Origin: Amycolatopsis sp. FDAARGOS 1241
GTDB taxonomy: Bacteria; Actinomycetota; Actinomycetes; Mycobacteriales; Pseudonocardiaceae
Direction: 5' to 3'
Assembly: GCF_016889705.1 (NCBI RefSeq)
Contig: NZ_CP069526.1
Span: forward strand, 7,699,001 to 7,763,000
Length of the DNA stretch: 64,000 nt
The stretch's first letter is position 1, and each line of letters starts with the position of its first letter. Both the position numbers and the translations under genes were made by a program. The notes under the pieces are model-generated. The model was not told the origin of the DNA. It saw only the letters and a program-made list of their open reading frames with translations, and ran no database searches. Below are positions 52,829-62,933 of the stretch, one piece after another.

Positions 52829-53135
52829 GACCGCTCCTCAGCCGGGTCGTTCGTGGTGCTGCCTTACTTGCCTGCACAACCACTTGCGTGGAAGATGTAT
52901 TCCTCGGTGACGATACCGGTGACCTGGGCCACCCTCCCGCCTGCACCCCTGAACCACGGGAGACTCGCCACACCGGGGCCGGAGCACGCGGAAGCTGTCG
53001 GGGTGTCCGGATATCCTGCAGTACGGTGTCGGCTCGGGGCAGCCCGAACCCCCGCGAACGCCCAGGTGACTGGGCACGCGGGCACCAGCCTGAAACACCG
53101 CCGTGCAGCGAGCCAAGATCCGGGAGAGCGACCTC

Positions 53136-55187
53136 GTGACTGCTGAGACTCTGTACGGGGCCGACGACCTGACACACCTCGAGGGCCTTGAAGCCGTCCG
53201 CAAGCGCCCCGGGATGTACATCGGCTCCACCGACAGCCGTGGCATCAACCACCTGTTCTCGGAGATCGTCGACAACTCCACCGACGAGGGCGTGGCGGGC
53301 CACGCCACCCGCGTCGTCGTGACCCTCCACGCCGACGGCAGCGTGCAGGTCGACGACGACGGCCGCGGCATCCCCACCGGCATCCACGCCAAATCGGGCC
53401 TTTCCGGCGTCGAACTGGTGCTGACCCGGCTGCACGCGGGCGGCAAGTTCGGCGGCTCGGGATACAAGACGTCCGGAGGTCTCCACGGCGTGGGCGCGTC
53501 GGCGGTCAACGCGCTGTCGCACCGCTTCGACATCACCGTGAAGCAGAGCGGCAAGGTGCACCAGATGTCGTTCGCGCACGGCGTGCCCGGCGTGTTCGAC
53601 GGGCCCGGCCCCAAGGCCAAGTTCACCCGCCGCTCCGGCCTCAACCTCGCCGGCAAGATGAAGCGCGGTGAACGCAGCGGCACGTCGATCCGCTACTGGT
53701 ACGACGCGCGCTACTTCGAGACGGGCGCGGCACTCGACGTCGAAGGCGTGCGTGCGAAGCTGCGCAACACCGCGTTCCTCGTGCCGGGCGTCACGTACGT
53801 GCTGCGCACGGCCATCGAGGACACGATCAACGAGGAGACCTTCCACTACCCGCACGGACTCGTGGACATGGTCGATTTCCTCACGCCTTCGGGCGAAAAG
53901 CCGGTGTGCGGCACGCTCGTGATCACCGGTGAGGGCACGTACAAGGAGAACGCCGCCGACGCCAACGGCGTGATGCGGTCCAATGTGGAGCGCCACGCCG
54001 AGGTGGAGGTCGCGCTGCGCTGGGGCACCGGCTACGAGCGCACCGTGGAGTGCTTCACCAACACCATCCGCAACGTGCACGGCGGCACGCACCGGCGCGG
54101 CTTCGACCGCGCCGTCACCCGCGCGCTGCAGGATGCGATCGGCAAGACCCGCGGGCTCCTCAAGCCCAAGGAAGATCCGCCCACGCTCGAAGACGTGCTC
54201 GAGGGCATGACCGCCGTGATCCACGTGCGGCTGCCCGAACCGCAGTTCACGTCGCAGACCAAGGACGAGCTGTCCACGGCCGGCATCACCCGCGTGCTCC
54301 AAGGCATCGTCGACAAGCACGTGAAGGCGTGGGTCGAGGACCGCAAGACCAAGTCCGAGGCGAAGGTCGTGCTGCAGAAGGTGGTCGACGCCGCGCGCGT
54401 GCGGCTGACCCAGAAGCAGCAGAAGGACGCCGCGCGGCGCAAGACGGCTCTCGAAGGCGCGGCGATGCCGCCGAAGCTGGTCGACTGCCGCACCACCGGG
54501 GTCTCCCGCAGCGAGCTGTTCCTCGTCGAGGGTGACAGCGCGCTCGGGTCGGCCCGCATGGCGCGCGTGTCGGAGTACCAGGCGCTGCTGCCGCTGCGCG
54601 GCAAGATCCTCAACGTGCAGAAGGCGTCGCTCGGCGACACGCTGAAGAACGCCGAGATCGCGTCGATCGTGCAGGTGCTCGGCGCGGGCACCGGGCGCAC
54701 GTTCGACCTGTCGACGATGCGCTACGGCCGCGTGATCCTGATGGCCGACGCCGACGTCGACGGCTCGCACATCCGCACGCTGCTGATCACCCTGTTCGCG
54801 AAGTACATGCGCCCGGTGATCGAGGACGGCCGGCTGTACGCGGCGATGCCACCCCTGCACAAGCTCGTCACGAAGGGCCGCAACCCGGAGACGCACTTCA
54901 CCTTCACGCAGCGGGAGATGGAGCAGAAGTTCGCCGAGCTGGAGAAGGCGGGCAAGAACATCGTCACCCCGGTGCCGCGGTTCAAGGGCCTCGGCGAGAT
55001 GGACGCCGACGAGCTGTGGGAAACCACCATGAACCCCGCCACCCGCTCCGTGCGCCGCATCACCATGGACGACGCCGAAGCCGCCGAGGGCGCGCTGGAC
55101 CTGCTGATGGGCGAAAAGGTCGAGCCCCGGCGGAACTGGCTCGTCGCCTCGTCGGACCGGGTCGACCGCGAAGCCATCGACGTCTGA
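53136..55187 (+). CDS. parE: type IIA topoisomerase B subunit (ParE-like, topoisomerase IV/second gyrase)
   Basis: 683 residues. The GHKL ATPase has EIVDNSTDEGVAGHA, DDDGRGIPTGIHAKSG and KTSGGLHGVGASAVNALS; the transducer follows; the TOPRIM has LFLVEGDSALGSARMARVSE, PLRGKILNVQKAS and ADADVDGSHIRTLL. EGDSALGSAR, where GyrB has EGDSAGGSAK, marks it as the ParE-like paralogue found beside gyrase in actinobacteria. It would decatenate chromosomes with the A subunit encoded next. GTG 53136 has GGGAGAG seven bases upstream; GTG 53103 is possible. 30 bp from parC. Confidence 0.9.
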   Translation: MTAETLYGADDLTHLEGLEAVRKRPGMYIGSTDSRGINHLFSEIVDNSTDEGVAGHATRVVVTLHADGSVQVDDDGRGIPTGIHAKSGLSGVELVLTRLHAGGKFGGSGYKTSGGLHGVGASAVNALSHRFDITVKQSGKVHQMSFAHGVPGVFDGPGPKAKFTRRSGLNLAGKMKRGERSGTSIRYWYDARYFETGAALDVEGVRAKLRNTAFLVPGVTYVLRTAIEDTINEETFHYPHGLVDMVDFLTPSGEKPVCGTLVITGEGTYKENAADANGVMRSNVERHAEVEVALRWGTGYERTVECFTNTIRNVHGGTHRRGFDRAVTRALQDAIGKTRGLLKPKEDPPTLEDVLEGMTAVIHVRLPEPQFTSQTKDELSTAGITRVLQGIVDKHVKAWVEDRKTKSEAKVVLQKVVDAARVRLTQKQQKDAARRKTALEGAAMPPKLVDCRTTGVSRSELFLVEGDSALGSARMARVSEYQALLPLRGKILNVQKASLGDTLKNAEIASIVQVLGAGTGRTFDLSTMRYGRVILMADADVDGSHIRTLLITLFAKYMRPVIEDGRLYAAMPPLHKLVTKGRNPETHFTFTQREMEQKFAELEKAGKNIVTPVPRFKGLGEMDADELWETTMNPATRSVRRITMDDAEAAEGALDLLMGEKVEPRRNWLVASSDRVDREAIDV

Positions 55188-55217: not shown

Positions 55218-58200
55218 GTGGCACGCCGCAAGGGCACCACCACCAAGGTCGATCCGAGCGCGTTCGACTCCCCCGGTGCGAACGTCTTCGACAACTCGCT
55301 GAAGACCGAGATCGAAGACTCCTACTTGGAGTACGCGTACTCGGTCATCCACTCGCGCGCCCTGCCGGACGCGCGCGACGGGCTGAAGCCGGTGCACCGC
55401 CGGATCCTCTACTCGATGAACGAGAACGGCTACCGCCCGACTCACGCGTACGTGAAGTCTTCCCGCGTCGTCGGCGACTGCTTCGTGCGTGGCGCACTGG
55501 TCTCCACGCCGGCCGGTCTCCGGCCGATCGAGGAGATCGAGATCGGCGACCGCGTGCTCGACAGCCGCGGCACCGCCGTTCCGGTCACCGAGGTTTACGA
55601 GAACCCGGCCTCCGACCTCGTCCGGGTCACCTGGTCGAACGGGCACACGATGCTCGTCACGCCCGGCCAGCGGTTCCGCACCGTGGCTGATGATTCGACC
55701 CTGACCTGGACGGCCGCGCGCGACCTCACCGGCCTGCGGACGGTCGCCTACGGCAACGCACGCAGGGAACAGCGCCAACCGGGTGGCGATCTCTACGCCT
55801 ATCTCCTCGGCCTGATCACGGCCGAGGGGTTCGCGGTGGACCGCAACCGCGAGGCCGACGGCCGCGTCCGCCTCCACATGTGCGACGTCGAGCCGCTCGA
55901 CGCGGTGTACGCGTGGGCGCAGGCCAACGGCGTTGGCGTGACCCGGGGAACGCGTGCCGCGGCGAAGGCGGAATGGCGCGATCAGCACATCCTCACGTTC
56001 GCCCGCCACGATGGTCTGCTCGAGGCGGGGAGTCCGCTCAGCGACGGGAAAACCGTCCCGGCAGCCGTTCTGGCCGATCGCTCGGTGTGGGCGCCCTACC
56101 TTGCCGGCATCTTCGACGGCGACGGCTACGTCCGCAAGAACCACCGGGAGATCGTCTACGTCAGCACGAGCGAAGAGCTCGTTCGGCAGGTTTACGCGAT
56201 GCTTGCGGATCTCGGCATCCACGGTCATCATTGGACCAACACTAAGGCTGAGGGGCACAAAACACTGCTCGGCCTGTCGGTCAGCGGATCCGACGCCGCG
56301 GCACTGGCCCGGATCCTGATGCCGTGGACCAAAATCGGTTACAAGAAGAGTGCACTGGAAAACCTGGCGGAGATCGCCTACGGCTACGGCGGCAAGCAGG
56401 GCAACGACCGGCTGCCCAACAAGGGCGTGATGGCCGAGTTCTCGGCCGCGCACCTCGGCGGCGGCTGGTTCCGCGACACCGAAGGCACCGCATTCCGTGC
56501 TTCGCTGCCGGCAGTGAGCGGCGCGAAAGTCCGCTACGGCAAGGATCGCCACGGCACGGCGCTGGCCGACCGCTCGTTCCCCCTTGCCCGCGCCTATCAG
56601 GACGGCTGGATCGACAAGCTGCGGCGGATCGGGTCGCCCCTCGCCGACCGGCTCGACGCGCTGAACGGGTTCTCCTTCCTGGAAGTCGTGTCGGTCGAAC
56701 CGGTCGCGCCCGACGTCACCTACGATATCCAGGTCGGCACTGACGACCACGAGTTCACAGTCGAGGGATTCGCCGTCCACAACTGCATGGGCAAGTACCA
56801 TCCACACGGCGACGTCGCGATCTACGACGCGATGGTGCGGCTGGCGCAAGACTTTTCGCTGAACGTGCCGTTGATCGACGGACATGGAAATTTTGGCAGC
56901 CCAGACGATGGACCGGCTGCTTCGCGCTACACCGAGACTCGGATGTCGCCCGAAGCGATGCTGCTCGTCGGGGAGCTGGGAGAAGACACGGTCGACTTCC
57001 GGCCCAATTACGACGGTTCCCTCGAAGAGCCGACGGTACTGCCCGCGGCATACCCGAACCTGCTCGTCAACGGCACCTCCGGCATTGCCGTCGGTATGGC
57101 GACCAACATGATCCCGCACAACCTCGGCGAGGTCATCGCGGCGGCGCGGTGGCTGATCACGCACCCCACGGCGACGCTCGACAAGCTGATGGAGTTCGTG
57201 CCCGGGCCCGACCTGCCCACCGGCGGCAAGCTGCTCGGCCTGGACGAGGTGCGCCGCGCGTACGAGACGGGCCGTGGCGTTGTGCGGATGCGCGCGAACG
57301 TCGAGACCGGGCCGCTGGAGGGCAGCCGCGGGCGGCAGGCGATCACCGTGACCGAGCTGCCCTACGGCGTGGGCCCGGAGAAGGTGATCGAGAAGATCAC
57401 CGACGAGGTCAACAAGTCGAAGCGGCTCACCGGCATCGCCGACGTCAAGGACCTCACCGACCGCGAGAACGGCACGCGGCTGGTGATCGAGTGCAAGGTG
57501 GGCGTCAACCCGCAGGCGCTGCTCGCGGACCTGTACCGGCTGACGCCGCTGGAGCAGTCGTTCGGCATCAACAACCTGGTGCTCGTCGACGGCCAGCCGC
57601 AGACGCTCGGGCTCAAGGAGCTGCTGGAAGTCTTCCTGCGGCACCGCTACGACGTGGTCACGCGGCGCACCCGCTACCGGCGCAGGAAGCGTGAAGAGCG
57701 GCTGCACCTGGTCGACGGCCTGCTGATCGCGCTGCTGAACATCGACAAGGTCATCAAGCTCATCCGCGAGAGCGAAAACGCGCAGGCCGCGAAGGACGGC
57801 TTGATGACGCGCTTCAAGCTTTCGGAGGTCCAGGCGACCTACATCCTGGACACGCCGCTGCGCCGGCTGACCAAGTACGACCGGCTGGAGCTGGAGTCGG
57901 AGCAGGAGCGGCTGCGCGAGGAGATCGCGGAGCTGACGAAGATCCTCGACGACGAGTCGGTGCTGAAGAAGCTCGTGTCGAGCGAGCTGGCGAAGATCGC
58001 GAAGGACTTCCCGACCGAGCGCCGCACCGCGCTGATCGACGGGGACCTCAAGGAGGTGCTGGCGGCGTCCAAGCCGTCCGGGCCGCTGGAGGTCGCCGAC
58101 GACCCGTGCCAGGTCATCCTGTCGGCCACCGGTCTCATCGCCCGCACGGCGGCGGAGTCGGAGGAGGCGACGGAGACGCGGCGGCGCAACGGCCGCGTGA

Positions 58201-59009
58201 AGCACGACGCCGTCGCCTCGGTGGTGCACACCACCGCGCGCGGGCAGGTGCTGCTGGTGACCAGCCGCGGCCGCGCGTTCAAGACCGACGTGCTGCCGTT
58301 GCCGGTGCTGCCGGAGCAGGCGGGCACGGTCTCGCTGCGCGGCGGCATGGCGGCGCGCGAGCTGGTGCCGCTGGAGAAGGGTGAGCGCGTGGTCGGCCTC
58401 GCCCCGCTCGGCGAGCAGGCGGCCGGGTCGCCGGGCCTGGCGATCGGCACGCGCGCCGGGGTGGTGAAGGTGGTCGCTCCGGAGTGGCCCGTGCGATCCG
58501 ACGAGTTCGAGATCATCACCCTCAAGGGCGACGACGAGATCATCGGCGCCACCTGGCTGACGGACGGCAACGAGACCTTGGCGTTCGTGTCGTCGGACGC
58601 TTCGCTGCTGCGGTACGCCTCGTCGCTGGTGCGGCCGCAGGGCCTGAAGGGCGGCGGCATGGCGGGCATCAACCTGTCCGCGGGGGCGTCGGCGGTGTTC
58701 TTCGGCGCCGTCCGCACGGACGACGACGAGCACGGCGAACCTCTGGTCGTCACCGCCACGGGGCAGTCGGTGAAGGTCACGCCGTTCAGCGAGTACCCCG
58801 CGAAGGGCCGCGCCACCGGCGGCGTGCGAGCGCACCGCTTCCTCAAGGGCGAGTCCTCCGTCAGCGTCGCCTGGATCGGCCCCCGCCCGGCCGGCGCCGC
58901 CCGCAACGGCGACCCCGTCGAACTCCCGGAGGTCGACCTCCGCCGCGACGGCTCGGGCCACGCCCACCCCGGCCCAGACGTCGTGGGTCACACCATCGAA
59001 CGAGACTGA
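55218..59009 (+). CDS. parC: type IIA topoisomerase A subunit (ParC-like) precursor with intein
   Basis: 1263-residue precursor; 828 residues after removal of a 435-residue intein (88-522). The extein starts with SLKTEIEDSYLEYAYSVIHS and the spliced joint SSRVVGD/CMGKYHPHGD. The catalytic Tyr is Tyr571 of the precursor (136 after splicing) in AASRYTETRMSPEAM. The tower/coiled-coil region (about 820-960) and a C-terminal beta-pinwheel with GyrA-box-like repeats (LLVTSRGRAFKTDVLPLPVL, LAIGTRAGVVKVV) follow. With the ParE-like subunit it forms a DNA-passing enzyme. GTG 55218 follows AAGGAG. A perfect terminator ends the operon. Confidence 0.9.
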   Translation: MARRKGTTTKVDPSAFDSPGANVFDNSLKTEIEDSYLEYAYSVIHSRALPDARDGLKPVHRRILYSMNENGYRPTHAYVKSSRVVGDCFVRGALVSTPAGLRPIEEIEIGDRVLDSRGTAVPVTEVYENPASDLVRVTWSNGHTMLVTPGQRFRTVADDSTLTWTAARDLTGLRTVAYGNARREQRQPGGDLYAYLLGLITAEGFAVDRNREADGRVRLHMCDVEPLDAVYAWAQANGVGVTRGTRAAAKAEWRDQHILTFARHDGLLEAGSPLSDGKTVPAAVLADRSVWAPYLAGIFDGDGYVRKNHREIVYVSTSEELVRQVYAMLADLGIHGHHWTNTKAEGHKTLLGLSVSGSDAAALARILMPWTKIGYKKSALENLAEIAYGYGGKQGNDRLPNKGVMAEFSAAHLGGGWFRDTEGTAFRASLPAVSGAKVRYGKDRHGTALADRSFPLARAYQDGWIDKLRRIGSPLADRLDALNGFSFLEVVSVEPVAPDVTYDIQVGTDDHEFTVEGFAVHNCMGKYHPHGDVAIYDAMVRLAQDFSLNVPLIDGHGNFGSPDDGPAASRYTETRMSPEAMLLVGELGEDTVDFRPNYDGSLEEPTVLPAAYPNLLVNGTSGIAVGMATNMIPHNLGEVIAAARWLITHPTATLDKLMEFVPGPDLPTGGKLLGLDEVRRAYETGRGVVRMRANVETGPLEGSRGRQAITVTELPYGVGPEKVIEKITDEVNKSKRLTGIADVKDLTDRENGTRLVIECKVGVNPQALLADLYRLTPLEQSFGINNLVLVDGQPQTLGLKELLEVFLRHRYDVVTRRTRYRRRKREERLHLVDGLLIALLNIDKVIKLIRESENAQAAKDGLMTRFKLSEVQATYILDTPLRRLTKYDRLELESEQERLREEIAELTKILDDESVLKKLVSSELAKIAKDFPTERRTALIDGDLKEVLAASKPSGPLEVADDPCQVILSATGLIARTAAESEEATETRRRNGRVKHDAVASVVHTTARGQVLLVTSRGRAFKTDVLPLPVLPEQAGTVSLRGGMAARELVPLEKGERVVGLAPLGEQAAGSPGLAIGTRAGVVKVVAPEWPVRSDEFEIITLKGDDEIIGATWLTDGNETLAFVSSDASLLRYASSLVRPQGLKGGGMAGINLSAGASAVFFGAVRTDDDEHGEPLVVTATGQSVKVTPFSEYPAKGRATGGVRAHRFLKGESSVSVAWIGPRPAGAARNGDPVELPEVDLRRDGSGHAHPGPDVVGHTIERD
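55479..56783 (+). mobile_element. ParC intein with LAGLIDADG homing endonuclease
   Basis: 435 codons in frame within parC. It starts at Cys1 (CFVRGALVSTPAGLRPIEEI), ends FAVHN, and is followed by Cys as +1 residue. Block B is VTPGQRF: the usual TxxH reads T61PGQ64, so the conserved His is Gln. Block F is DDHEFTVEGF. The two endonuclease motifs are YLLGLITAEGF (about 108-118) and YLAGIFDGDGYV (about 207-218), with an acidic residue in each. Base composition is less GC-biased in places (56230-56350). The site precedes MGKYHPHGD, not the catalytic Tyr used by mycobacterial GyrA inteins. Confidence 0.92.
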
Positions 59010-59619: not shown

Positions 59620-60924
59620 TCACGCGACGTGGAACGACTGCGCCGCGCCGCCGTTGCACGTGGCCTGCACGAGCTGTGTGCTGTCCGCGGTGGACGAACC
59701 CGGCACCGTCAGGCACTTACCGCTGTGCCGGGCGACGAAGTGGTAGTACCCGCTTCCCTCCGACACCGGCTGCCACTGCTGGTTGCCGCCGCCGCTGTAG
59801 GACCACAGCTGCAGGCCCGCGTTGTCCGCAGTGGACACGTCTGTCACGTCGATGACCTCGGCCGCGTTGCCGCGGTTGTTGATCCGGACGTAGCCGTCGC
59901 TCGTCGGCTGGAACTGGAACTGCTGGGCGTTGGTGGCGTTGCAGGTGTACTGCTGGATCACCGTGCCGTTGGCCGTCCCGGCGGCGCGCGCGTCGACGCA
60001 CTTGCCATTCCCCTCGTTCACCACGGGGTACCACGCGGTGGGCGAGATCCCGCCGGACGGCGGTGGGGTGCCACCGTCACCGGTCGCACCGCCCAGCCAG
60101 CGCAGGCCGTCGAGCACGAAGCGGTTCTGGTCGGGGCTCGCGAACGTCGACGACAGCGCCGTGTTCGTGGCGTAGTTCATCTTGTTGTGGCCGAAGTTCG
60201 CGTACAGCATCTTGTAGTTCTTGTTCGTCCACATGATCGGGTAGTACCCGCTGTACCAGGTCTGCGACGGGTCGTCGCCCACCGGGAACGTCGACGGGTC
60301 GAGTGAGGCGAGAATCGAGATGTTCGGGTTCTGCCGCAGGTCGTTCTGCCACGAGTACCACTCGCTCACCGACGACTGGATCGTCGCCGGCAGGTTCACC
60401 GTCGACGGGTGCGTGCGGTTCTCGATCTTGAGCGTCTCCGCGGTCGGGCCCCACGAGTTGGACACGAACCGGCCGGTGCCGAGGAATTCGTTGTGGAACC
60501 AGTTCGCATAGGACGGTGACGAGCTGTCGTTGTACGCCGTCACGTGGAACCCGAAGAACGCGCCGCCCGCGTCCATGTACCGCTGGAAACCCTGGAACTG
60601 CGCCTGTGACTGCGGCTGGTCGTCGAGGAACATCACGACCTGCGCCTGTGAGGGCGTGAGCGAGGTGAGCTGGTTCCAGTTGGTGGTGGCCGTGAACGTG
60701 TAACCGTTGGCCGCCGCCTGCTGCTGGAACCACGGGCGGGCTTCGTTCTCGAAGCTGATGTGCGCGGCGTCGTACGTGCCGCTGTAGAACGCGAGCACCT
60801 TGAACGGCGTGGCCGCCGCGGCGGGCTGCGTCAGCGCCGGGGAACCGTAGGCGAGGCCGAGGCACGCGGCGAAGAACGCCAGCGCTTTCCCGACCAGCCC
60901 GAACCGGCGTCGTGGGGCGGACAT
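59620..60924 (-). CDS. secreted ThuA-domain protein with ricin-B lectin module
   Basis: 434 residues. A signal peptide (KALAFFAACLGLAYGSPALT, cut near AAAA) precedes a ThuA-like flavodoxin-fold domain (FKVLAFYSGTYDAAHISFEN, VVMFLDDQPQSQAQF, AFFGFHVTAYNDSS, LYANFGHNKMNYA). A Gly/Pro linker and a ricin-type beta-trefoil (about 310-434) follow, with QxW-like repeats (NAQQFQFQP, NQQWQPVS, AAQSFHVA) and GKCVDARAAGTANGT. ThuA domains occur in sugar metabolism and may be hydrolase-like; the lectin would bind glycans outside the cell. ATG 60924 has GGAAGGATC ahead. 43 bp after the GH3 gene, likely one operon. Confidence 0.85.
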   Translation of the reverse strand: MSAPRRRFGLVGKALAFFAACLGLAYGSPALTQPAAAATPFKVLAFYSGTYDAAHISFENEARPWFQQQAAANGYTFTATTNWNQLTSLTPSQAQVVMFLDDQPQSQAQFQGFQRYMDAGGAFFGFHVTAYNDSSSPSYANWFHNEFLGTGRFVSNSWGPTAETLKIENRTHPSTVNLPATIQSSVSEWYSWQNDLRQNPNISILASLDPSTFPVGDDPSQTWYSGYYPIMWTNKNYKMLYANFGHNKMNYATNTALSSTFASPDQNRFVLDGLRWLGGATGDGGTPPPSGGISPTAWYPVVNEGNGKCVDARAAGTANGTVIQQYTCNATNAQQFQFQPTSDGYVRINNRGNAAEVIDVTDVSTADNAGLQLWSYSGGGNQQWQPVSEGSGYYHFVARHSGKCLTVPGSSTADSTQLVQATCNGGAAQSFHVA

Positions 60925-60967
60925 GGCAGATCCTTCCGGGGGTGGGGGGAGGGAGAGGAAGGGTGGA

Positions 60968-62812
60968 TCACCACGAGCCGCGGTGCTGGTACCGCAGCCC
61001 GTAGCCGAAGGGGAACAACGCGGGCTTCCCGTCACCGACGTTGATCGGCTGCTGGTCGGCGCTGCGCATCCAGGTGACCGGCAGCTTGCCGGTCGGGTTG
61101 TAGTCGCCGAAGAGCACGTCGGCCACGCCCTGGCCTTCGCTGCCCGGCAGCCACGACTCGATCAGTCCGGCCCAGTCCGGCAACTGCTTCGCGATGTCCA
61201 GCGGCCGGCCTGACACGAGCACGACCACCGTCGGCACGCCCGCGTCGTGCAGCTTCTGCAACGTCGCGAGGTCCGTGGCGTCCAGCCCCATATCCCCCGG
61301 CCGGTCGCCCTTGGTCTCCGCGTACGGCGTCTCCCCCACCACGGCGACGGCCACGTCGTACGACTTGTCGATGCCGCTGCCGTCCTTGCTGAACGTGACG
61401 GTCGACGAGTTCTTCACCGTGTTCTCGATGCCCTGCAGGATCGTCGTGCCCGGGATCACCGGCCCGGACGTGCCCTGCCAGCCGACGGTCCAGCCGCCGG
61501 CCTGATTGCCGATGTCGTCGGCGCTCTTGCCGGCGACGAAGATCTTGTTGTGCCCCTTGGCCAGCGGCAGCACGTCGTTCGAGTTCTTCAGCAGTACCTG
61601 CGATTCCCGCACGGCCTGGCGCGCCAGGTCACGGTGGGCCTTGCTGCCGATGGTCGAGAGGTACCGGCGGTCGGTGAGCGGGTGCTCGAAGAGGCCGAGC
61701 TGGAACTTCTTCGTGAGGATGCGGCGGTTCGCGTCGTCGATGCGCGACATCGGCACCTTGCCCTGCTGCACAAGGGTGCGCAGGGTGTCGATGAACTTCT
61801 GCCACTCGTACGGCACCATCACCATGTCGATGCCGGCGTTGATCGACGCCTCGACCTCGTCGGGCGTGAAGCCGGTCTGCCCGTCGATCTTGTCGACGCC
61901 GTTGTAGTCCGACACGACGATGCCGTCGAAACCGAGTTCCTTCTTGAGGACGTCGGTGATGAGGTAGGAGTTGGCGTGCAGCTTCACGTCGTTCCAGCTC
62001 GAGTAGCTCACCATCACCGAGCCGACGCCGCGCTGCACCGCCTCCTTGAACGGCGGCAGGTGGATCTGACGAAGTTCCTGCTCGCTGAGCTGCGTGTTGC
62101 CCTCGTTGACGCCGCCGGTCGTGCCGCCGTCGCCCACGTAGTGCTTGGCCGTCGCCAGCACCGACGCGGGCCCGCCGAGTGACCGCCCCTGCAGGCCGGT
62201 GATGACCGACGTCATCTCCGTGGCCAGCTGCGGCACCTCGCCGAACGACTCGTACGTGCGCCCCCACCGGTCGTTGCGCGCGACGCACAGGCACGGCGCG
62301 AAGTCCCAGTCGATGCCCGTGCCGGACACCTCTTCGGCCGTGGCGCGCCCGATCTTCTCCACGAGCTTCGGATCGCGTGCCGCGCCGAGCCCGATGTTGT
62401 GCGGGAACACGGTCGCGCCGTACACGCCGTTGTGGCCGTGCACCGCGTCGACGCCGTAGATGAGCGGGATGCCCAGTGGCGTCGCCAGCGCCGCCTTCTG
62501 GAACCCGTCGTACATGTCGGCCCAGGTCTGCGGCGTGTTCGGGGTGGGCTGCGAGCTGCCACCCGACAGCAGCGACCCGAGCCGCGCGTTCGTCACGTCC
62601 GCCGGCGACTGCACGCCGAGGCGCTCGGCCTGCATCATCTGCCCGAGCTTGTCGTCGAGGCTCATGCGCTTCAGCAGATCCGCGACGCGCACCGTCACGG
62701 GCCTTCGCGGATCCTTGTACGCCGGGCTGTTCCCGGCCAGCGCGGGCGTGTGCGCGCTCACCACGAGCGCCGCGGCCAGCACCCCGAGCGTGATCGAACG
62801 AGCGACGCGCAT
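60968..62812 (-). CDS. secreted GH3 beta-glucosidase
   Basis: 614 residues. The signal peptide is RSITLGVLAAALVVSAHTPA (cleavage near ALAGN). The GH3 N-domain has LLKRMSLDDKLGQMMQAERL, GVDAVHGHNGVYGATVFPHN, ATAKHYVGDGGTTGGVNEGN and the nucleophile Asp in IVVSDYNGVDKID; the C-domain has RESQVLLKNSNDVLPL and VVLVSGRPLDIAKQ. It would hydrolyse beta-linked gluco- or xylo-oligosaccharides outside the cell. ATG 62812 has CGAGGAGAAA upstream; a TATTAA at about 62858 on the minus strand may be its -10 box. First gene of a two-gene unit with the ThuA-lectin gene. Confidence 0.9.
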   Translation of the reverse strand: MRVARSITLGVLAAALVVSAHTPALAGNSPAYKDPRRPVTVRVADLLKRMSLDDKLGQMMQAERLGVQSPADVTNARLGSLLSGGSSQPTPNTPQTWADMYDGFQKAALATPLGIPLIYGVDAVHGHNGVYGATVFPHNIGLGAARDPKLVEKIGRATAEEVSGTGIDWDFAPCLCVARNDRWGRTYESFGEVPQLATEMTSVITGLQGRSLGGPASVLATAKHYVGDGGTTGGVNEGNTQLSEQELRQIHLPPFKEAVQRGVGSVMVSYSSWNDVKLHANSYLITDVLKKELGFDGIVVSDYNGVDKIDGQTGFTPDEVEASINAGIDMVMVPYEWQKFIDTLRTLVQQGKVPMSRIDDANRRILTKKFQLGLFEHPLTDRRYLSTIGSKAHRDLARQAVRESQVLLKNSNDVLPLAKGHNKIFVAGKSADDIGNQAGGWTVGWQGTSGPVIPGTTILQGIENTVKNSSTVTFSKDGSGIDKSYDVAVAVVGETPYAETKGDRPGDMGLDATDLATLQKLHDAGVPTVVVLVSGRPLDIAKQLPDWAGLIESWLPGSEGQGVADVLFGDYNPTGKLPVTWMRSADQQPINVGDGKPALFPFGYGLRYQHRGSW

Positions 62813-62933
62813 CCGGTTTCTCCTCGTCGAGCCACCAAACTTCACGCCTTGAATTAATACACAGTTCGCGTAAGTGGTCCAGACCTCGCGGACAAACCGG
62901 GTACCGGTCACCGGGATCGCGGTGCGACGAAAA

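Follow-up and report, generated by a model that had tools for sequence, protein, structure and literature searches.

A ParC intein family of Actinomycetota with glutamine at the position of the block B histidine

We analyzed a 64-kb stretch (here called the window, to which all coordinates refer unless stated otherwise) of the 9.8-Mb genome of Amycolatopsis sp. FDAARGOS 1241. In the window, parE lies directly upstream of parC with a gap of 30 bases, and the parC frame encodes a ParC/GyrA-type protein of 1,263 amino acids that includes an intein (Table 1). Pfam DNA_topoisoIV matches this protein in two stretches with 483 bits, over the cut-off. A search of the whole genome with a topoisomerase A-subunit model found two genes, parC and one other that was taken as gyrA, and the reading frame is open throughout this sole ParC found in the host genome. 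The two genes listed on the reverse strand beyond parC are ordinary sugar-use genes.

Table 1. Features of the parE–parC locus and of the intein within parC (window coordinates)
Feature	Position	Strand	Remarks
parE (topoisomerase IV subunit B)	53103..55187	+	Pfam DNA_gyraseB, DNA_gyraseB_C, Toprim, HATPase_c
parC ORF	55218..59009	+	intein included
ParC N-extein, residues 1–87	55218..55478	+	ends VVGD, Asp at -1
Full-length intein, 435 aa, Cys1 to Asn435	55479..56783	+	in-frame insert, VVGD/C...HN/CMGKYHPHGD
Cys1, first nucleophile	55479..55481	+	invariant in both family alignments
Block B TPGQ, T61–Q64	55659..55670	+	
Gln64 codon at B:10	55668..55670	+	His in other inteins
Arg81, candidate compensating basic residue	55719..55721	+	
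LAGLIDADG motif 1, LLGLITAEG, residue 109	55803..55829	+	
LAGLIDADG motif 2, LAGIFDGDG, residue 208	56100..56126	+	Pfam LAGLIDADG_3
Block F TYDIQVGTDDHEF; Asp416 = F:4, His424 = F:13	56718..56756	+	both invariant in both alignments
Block G His434–Asn435	56778..56783	+	invariant in both alignments
ParC C-extein	56784..59009	+	
Cys +1 (TGC)	56784..56786	+	Val in 60/62 intein-free alleles
Catalytic Tyr of ParC	56928..56930	+	adjoins other known intein site (RY/T)
ThuA-domain protein with ricin-type lectin domain	59620..61035	-	next to glycoside hydrolase gene
Family 3 glycoside hydrolase	60968..62911	-	next to ThuA-domain gene

A sequence-only reading of this DNA had proposed a full-length intein in ParC, running from Cys1 to His-Asn and followed by a +1 Cys, with two LAGLIDADG motifs. 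Our analysis confirmed this anatomy, and both motifs retain their acid. The Pfam models LAGLIDADG_3 (51.5 bits), Hom_end and Hint_2 and the intein C-terminal region model TIGR01443 scored over their cut-offs in the intein, Pfam Intein_splicing remained below its own (16 vs. 35.8 bits), and the window intein was not listed in the host-genome search with the N-terminal region model TIGR01445. The latter had a weak match elsewhere in the host genome (C1:6453312-6453533, 27.3 bits).

The residues D416, H424, H434, N435, Cys1 and Cys+1 do not vary in either of the two family alignments, of 23 and of 13 sequences. The intein thus has the Cys/Ser at position 1, the F:4 Asp, F:13 His, G:6 His and G:7 Asn, and the Cys/Ser/Thr at +1 that characterize class 1, and departs from that class in block B, where Thr at B:7 and His at B:10 are expected: Thr61 is invariant, but Gln64 takes the place of the His. 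Class 2 inteins have no nucleophile at position 1, where Cys1 is present here. Cys at F:4, described in PMC3196547 as part of the class 3 signature, is replaced by Asp416. The two motifs, each with its catalytic acid and located in a nested domain, are those of a LAGLIDADG homing intein. By profile, the splicing half of the family matches the solved inteins gp41-1, Spl DnaX, Mxe GyrA and PI-SceI/TliVMA, but the solved structures include no close sequence relative (best E 3e-5) and the aligned gp41-1 has the B:10 His. AlphaFold models built from shallow alignments, with overall mean pLDDT values of 65 and 68, were confident for the endonuclease and weak for the splicing half. The model of the window intein structurally matches PI-PfuI, I-Tsp061I and I-DmoI, and for a short copy (L055) the model aligns with TliVMA and PI-SceI across about 380–460 columns, with low TM-scores. 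As a source for the geometry of Gln64 the models were set aside because of the weak splicing half. Judged by its sequence, the insert in the window ParC is a real homing intein of ordinary architecture.

The mycobacterial GyrA-a intein (Mxe GyrA type) resembles the window intein in being class 1 and in residing in the A subunit of a type II topoisomerase, and differs from it in the site and in block B: the Mxe GyrA intein sits at the catalytic Tyr (RY/T) and has His at B:10. Numbered along the spliced ParC, the catalytic Tyr is at 136 and the intein is inserted after position 87, so that 49 residues separate the two insertion points. The claim of a site other than the catalytic tyrosine therefore stands, whereas the distance of 48 residues given with it was one short.

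The replacement of the block B His by Gln, also suggested by the sequence-only reading, was verified by profile alignment to the solved gp41-1 intein, in which the t-P-G-q columns fall on s-e-e-h and Gln64 hence occupies B:10. As controls, 30 inteins were taken from phylum loci selected with TIGR01445, which is itself biased toward His, and all 30, among the matches listed, had His at B:10; in one of them (L107) the motif reads TENH by eye. A further 18 controls, weak matches to the window intein or its profile that span block B, are free of the TIGR01445 bias, and His was present in 18/18, some of these being Hint domains of other proteins and not proven inteins. The Tyr-site GyrA inteins among the weak matches (L026, L028, L030, L032 and L033) have His. 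An acidic residue at -1 does not require Gln, as five controls with Asp or Glu at -1 bear His, and we ruled out an adaptation of that kind.

We searched for relatives at several taxonomic levels. Among 397 genomes of the order, strong matches (E at most 1.2e-45) were found in 20 genomes and in a further one, G117, whose copy is split over two contigs, while 89 had any match at E 1e-3. The search of a named collection yielded 23 loci, from Amycolatopsis, Kutzneria, Allokutzneria, Micromonospora, Verrucosispora, Actinoplanes and Nucisporomicrobium. The order-search copies and the named loci all share the same ParC site and all have Gln, and the taxa with the Gln intein in ParC cover Pseudonocardiaceae, Micromonosporaceae and a third family of the order. 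The search of 396 genomes across the phylum gave four matches: the window genome, an unrelated ribonucleotide reductase (RNR; G758) and two deep relatives, in which the intein resides in GyrA at VVGE/C and ITGE/C. The block B sequences of the latter are TTGQLY and TPSQKF, and these remote copies retain Gln at B:10 at 40% and 30% identity. At the level of the class (394 genomes), the matches were the host genome and one known from the order search, and searches within the classes of G879 (39 genomes) and G781 (40 genomes) found these genomes themselves and one RNR intein with His.

Altogether, Gln occupies B:10 in 47/47 distinct sequences at the site; the residue at -1 is Asp in 45 and Glu in 2 of them, and Cys is found at +1 in 46/46 that are readable. 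Recurrence of the same site and the same Gln throughout the set excludes chance. In ten of the 47 (L016-L023, L055, L057), acidic residues of the endonuclease motifs are gone, and several such degenerate copies have shrunk, to as few as 265 residues, yet Gln is retained in all of them. In the split copy of G117 (L057 and L058; third family of the order), the endonuclease motifs have decayed in both parts and Gln is found in the first. Within residues 50–79 of 36 unique inteins, only G55, V60, T61, Q64 and W77 never vary, while the neighboring P62, G63, R65 and F66 do; with the GyrA copies added to the alignment, the invariant columns of block B are V60, T61 and Q64. The Gln codon is CAG in 25 and CAA in 11 of the 36 inteins, and the family-member rows are free of internal stops. 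A residue that stays the same while its codon changes synonymously is more readily understood as a functional group than as a defect. The Gln noted in the window is thus no oddity of a single copy but a family trait, fixed in all members of the allelic lineage that were found. Same-site relatives with Gln in ParC and GyrA proved numerous as sequences, the outcome that would remove the novelty if they were also described; in the open literature on ParC/GyrA inteins and His-less block B, searched without InBase, no title or abstract describes the site or the Gln.

Several host genes carry more than one intein. Two are found per ParC in L038, L060, L062, L063 and L066, and in the GyrA of L075, one being the Gln intein and the other, which has the block B His, being inserted at the catalytic Tyr (RY/C...). 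An Amycolatopsis ParC frame of 1,694 codons (L148/L204 in G1126) has the Gln intein and, downstream, intein-like profile matches that are probably a second intein. The RNR gene of the remote relative G758 (L077) contains two inteins, both with the block B His.

The distribution of the element was resolved best within Amycolatopsis. Among 80 genomes of the genus, the joined ParC stretch has an uninterrupted match in 58 and none of that kind in the remaining 22. A profile search run on 24 genomes, those 22 and two others, placed the Gln intein in 15 of the 80; in the other 7 of the 22, ParC breaks near the Tyr. On a tree of 75 extein alleles, computed from a short alignment of 309 bases and including 13 of the 15 intein-bearing genomes, at least 8 gains or losses are needed, against a mean of 12.2 and a minimum of 9 for shuffled data. 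The +1 codon is TGC in 53/53 intein loci, some of which repeat a genome, whereas the +1 residue of the 62 empty alleles parsed (of 65 supplied) is Val in 60, Ala in 1 and Cys in 1. Three substitutions separate GTG from TGC, so that the Cys is most likely brought in by the intein. Two of the empty alleles, those with Cys (L135) and Ala (L134), adjoin intein-bearing lineages on the tree and may be scars of intein loss.

The flanks of the insertion were compared between alleles. The window allele and its nearest empty relative (L118) differ at 51/420 bases 3' of the junction and at 10/180 bases 5' of it, while the empty pair L118 and L112 shows 20 and 5 differences in the same stretches; the excess in the window allele is as a co-conversion tract would give. 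Another comparison (L142 vs. L168) gave 22/300 differences against 23/300 between two empty alleles, with no excess beyond the first 30 bases. The patchiness and the replacement of the +1 residue are indirect signs of a putative homing of the element. As for a carrier, no relative of the intein was confirmed in viral contigs, none of 72,556 plasmid records matched, and phage records gave partial matches only, of about 26%, in 5 records; a phage or plasmid carrier or origin was not seen in these data and was dropped.

The block B His has been called the most conserved residue of inteins (PMC4031507, PMC10663303, PMC3196547), and its exact role, be it bond polarization, acid–base catalysis or the oxyanion, is described as disputed (PMC6333167). 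Inteins without it are said to form a very small subset (PMC6333167). PMC3196547 names two exceptions, the pseudogene Arth_1007 and the Tko CDC21-1 group; PMC4031507 (2014) and PMC7765530 (2020) repeat the same two. The Arth_1007 intein of Arthrobacter FB24 resembles ours in having no B:10 His and differs in having Asn there, in being a putative class 3 intein with tiny exteins and in having been shown inactive (PMC3196547). Closer in kind are Tko CDC21-1 and its archaeal orthologues, natural class 1 inteins without the His, from which it follows that His is the commonest B:10 residue of class 1 and not strictly a defining one. Tko CDC21-1 has Thr in its place (PMC5874633), Leu at -1, and as compensator Lys58, which lies outside the motifs and 23 residues past B:10 (PMC4031507). 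The window lineage, with Gln64 and Asp or Glu at -1, does not share this signature, and it resides in a different host protein and a different domain of life.

What the absence of His means for splicing allows several readings. That the insert is decaying and does not splice, ParC being not made or not needed in these strains, would have a precedent in Arth_1007, the sole exception named beside Tko CDC21-1 and a pseudogene (PMC3196547). However, the exteins read on here, as opposed to only 66 extein residues in Arth_1007, the remaining catalytic residues do not vary among the aligned copies, and comparison with L034, L035 and L005 gives the window copy a dN/dS of 0.08–0.22 in the N-terminal splicing part, making such decay very improbable. 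Among pairs with a degenerate endonuclease the values are mixed (0.16–0.55 in Hint-N, often no lower than in the endonuclease part), and we dropped dN/dS as proof of purifying selection on the splicing part of those copies. A slow or conditional reaction that regulates the supply of topoisomerase IV, as the sequence-only reading had suggested, would have some backing in the literature: every intein tested up to 2011 needed its B:10 His (PMC3196547), as did many tested later (PMC6333167), so the absence of the residue could slow the first step, and other inteins are known to splice conditionally (PMC10663303). Yet no sensor-like feature was seen among the motifs examined, and patchy presence within one genus (15/80), with probable losses, suits a mobile element and not a retained switch. 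In the sequence data examined here we found nothing in favor of a regulatory role, which we consider improbable, if less so than decay.

A more serious contender gives Gln the part of a structural placeholder and has bond strain, together with Thr61, Asp416 and Arg81 as a compensating basic residue, mainly drive the first acyl shift. Here Tko CDC21-1, with its Lys outside the motifs, is a precedent (PMC4031507), and the M86 Ssp DnaB intein is reported to splice without His when the -1 residue is bulky (PMC6333167); a basic residue is found at position 81 in 36/36 of the family and in 5/24 alignable controls. Against this, a placeholder should drift, and Gln never varies even where P62, G63 and R65 do, while the -1 residue, Asp or Glu in 47/47, is not among the large residues named for steric bypass. 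We regard this reading as possible, at roughly one chance in three by our judgment. Our preferred reading, to which we assign a probability of about 0.7, is that of an active homing intein with class 1 anatomy at a second conserved ParC/GyrA site, belonging to a lineage in which B:10 is fixed as Gln.

Conservation and the intact host gene make splicing of the window intein likely, and most likely the first step would be imidazole-free with splicing active. In such a mechanism, Cys1 would attack the carbonyl of Asp(-1), while the amide of Gln64, with Thr61 and Asp416, might orient and polarize the strained scissile bond or stabilize the oxyanion; Gln64 would do so without acid–base catalysis. 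The acyl group would then pass to Cys+1, and His424 and His434 would promote cyclization of Asn435, sealing ParC. The LAGLIDADG endonuclease would spread the element into intein-free alleles, with repair carrying the +1 Cys codon along. A conserved basic residue at 81 may assist the first step. It is Arg in 35 and Lys in 1 of the 36 unique inteins, lies 17 residues past B:10 and is the sole basic residue never lost around and after block B; of the 30 controls, 6 lack the conserved Trp, and among the 24 in which it can be aligned, 5 have a basic residue equally far from it. Arg81 recalls Lys58 of Tko CDC21-1, but at another distance. As a substitute for His it is a candidate, suggested by a correlation among related sequences, and may instead serve the fold; the roles proposed for Gln64 and Arg81 alike are what we infer from the alignments. 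Two other helpers were rejected: His56 (NGHTMLVTPGQ) as a stand-in for the B:10 His, since His is present there in 30/36, and the position corresponding to Lys58 of Tko CDC21-1 (here residue 87), which is not conserved (R 9, L 20, others 7 of 36).

More tentatively, and at slightly less than even odds, the family may be an intein type with a catalysis of its own: an old ParC/GyrA-site lineage across Actinomycetota that would perform the N–S acyl shift via the Gln amide, perhaps with Arg or Lys, co-convert its own +1 Cys and leave a scar after loss.

The entire lineage breaks with the best-kept catalytic rule of inteins and is a natural test of how splicing chemistry starts: dozens of natural inteins with an uncharged, nontitratable Gln separate hydrogen bonding from proton transfer. 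It offers ready-made test proteins, including short copies of 265–334 residues in which the endonuclease has decayed, and it may yield inteins for protein engineering with a different response to pH or zinc. The swap from Val to Cys at +1 is a marker for the gain and loss of inteins in a core enzyme.
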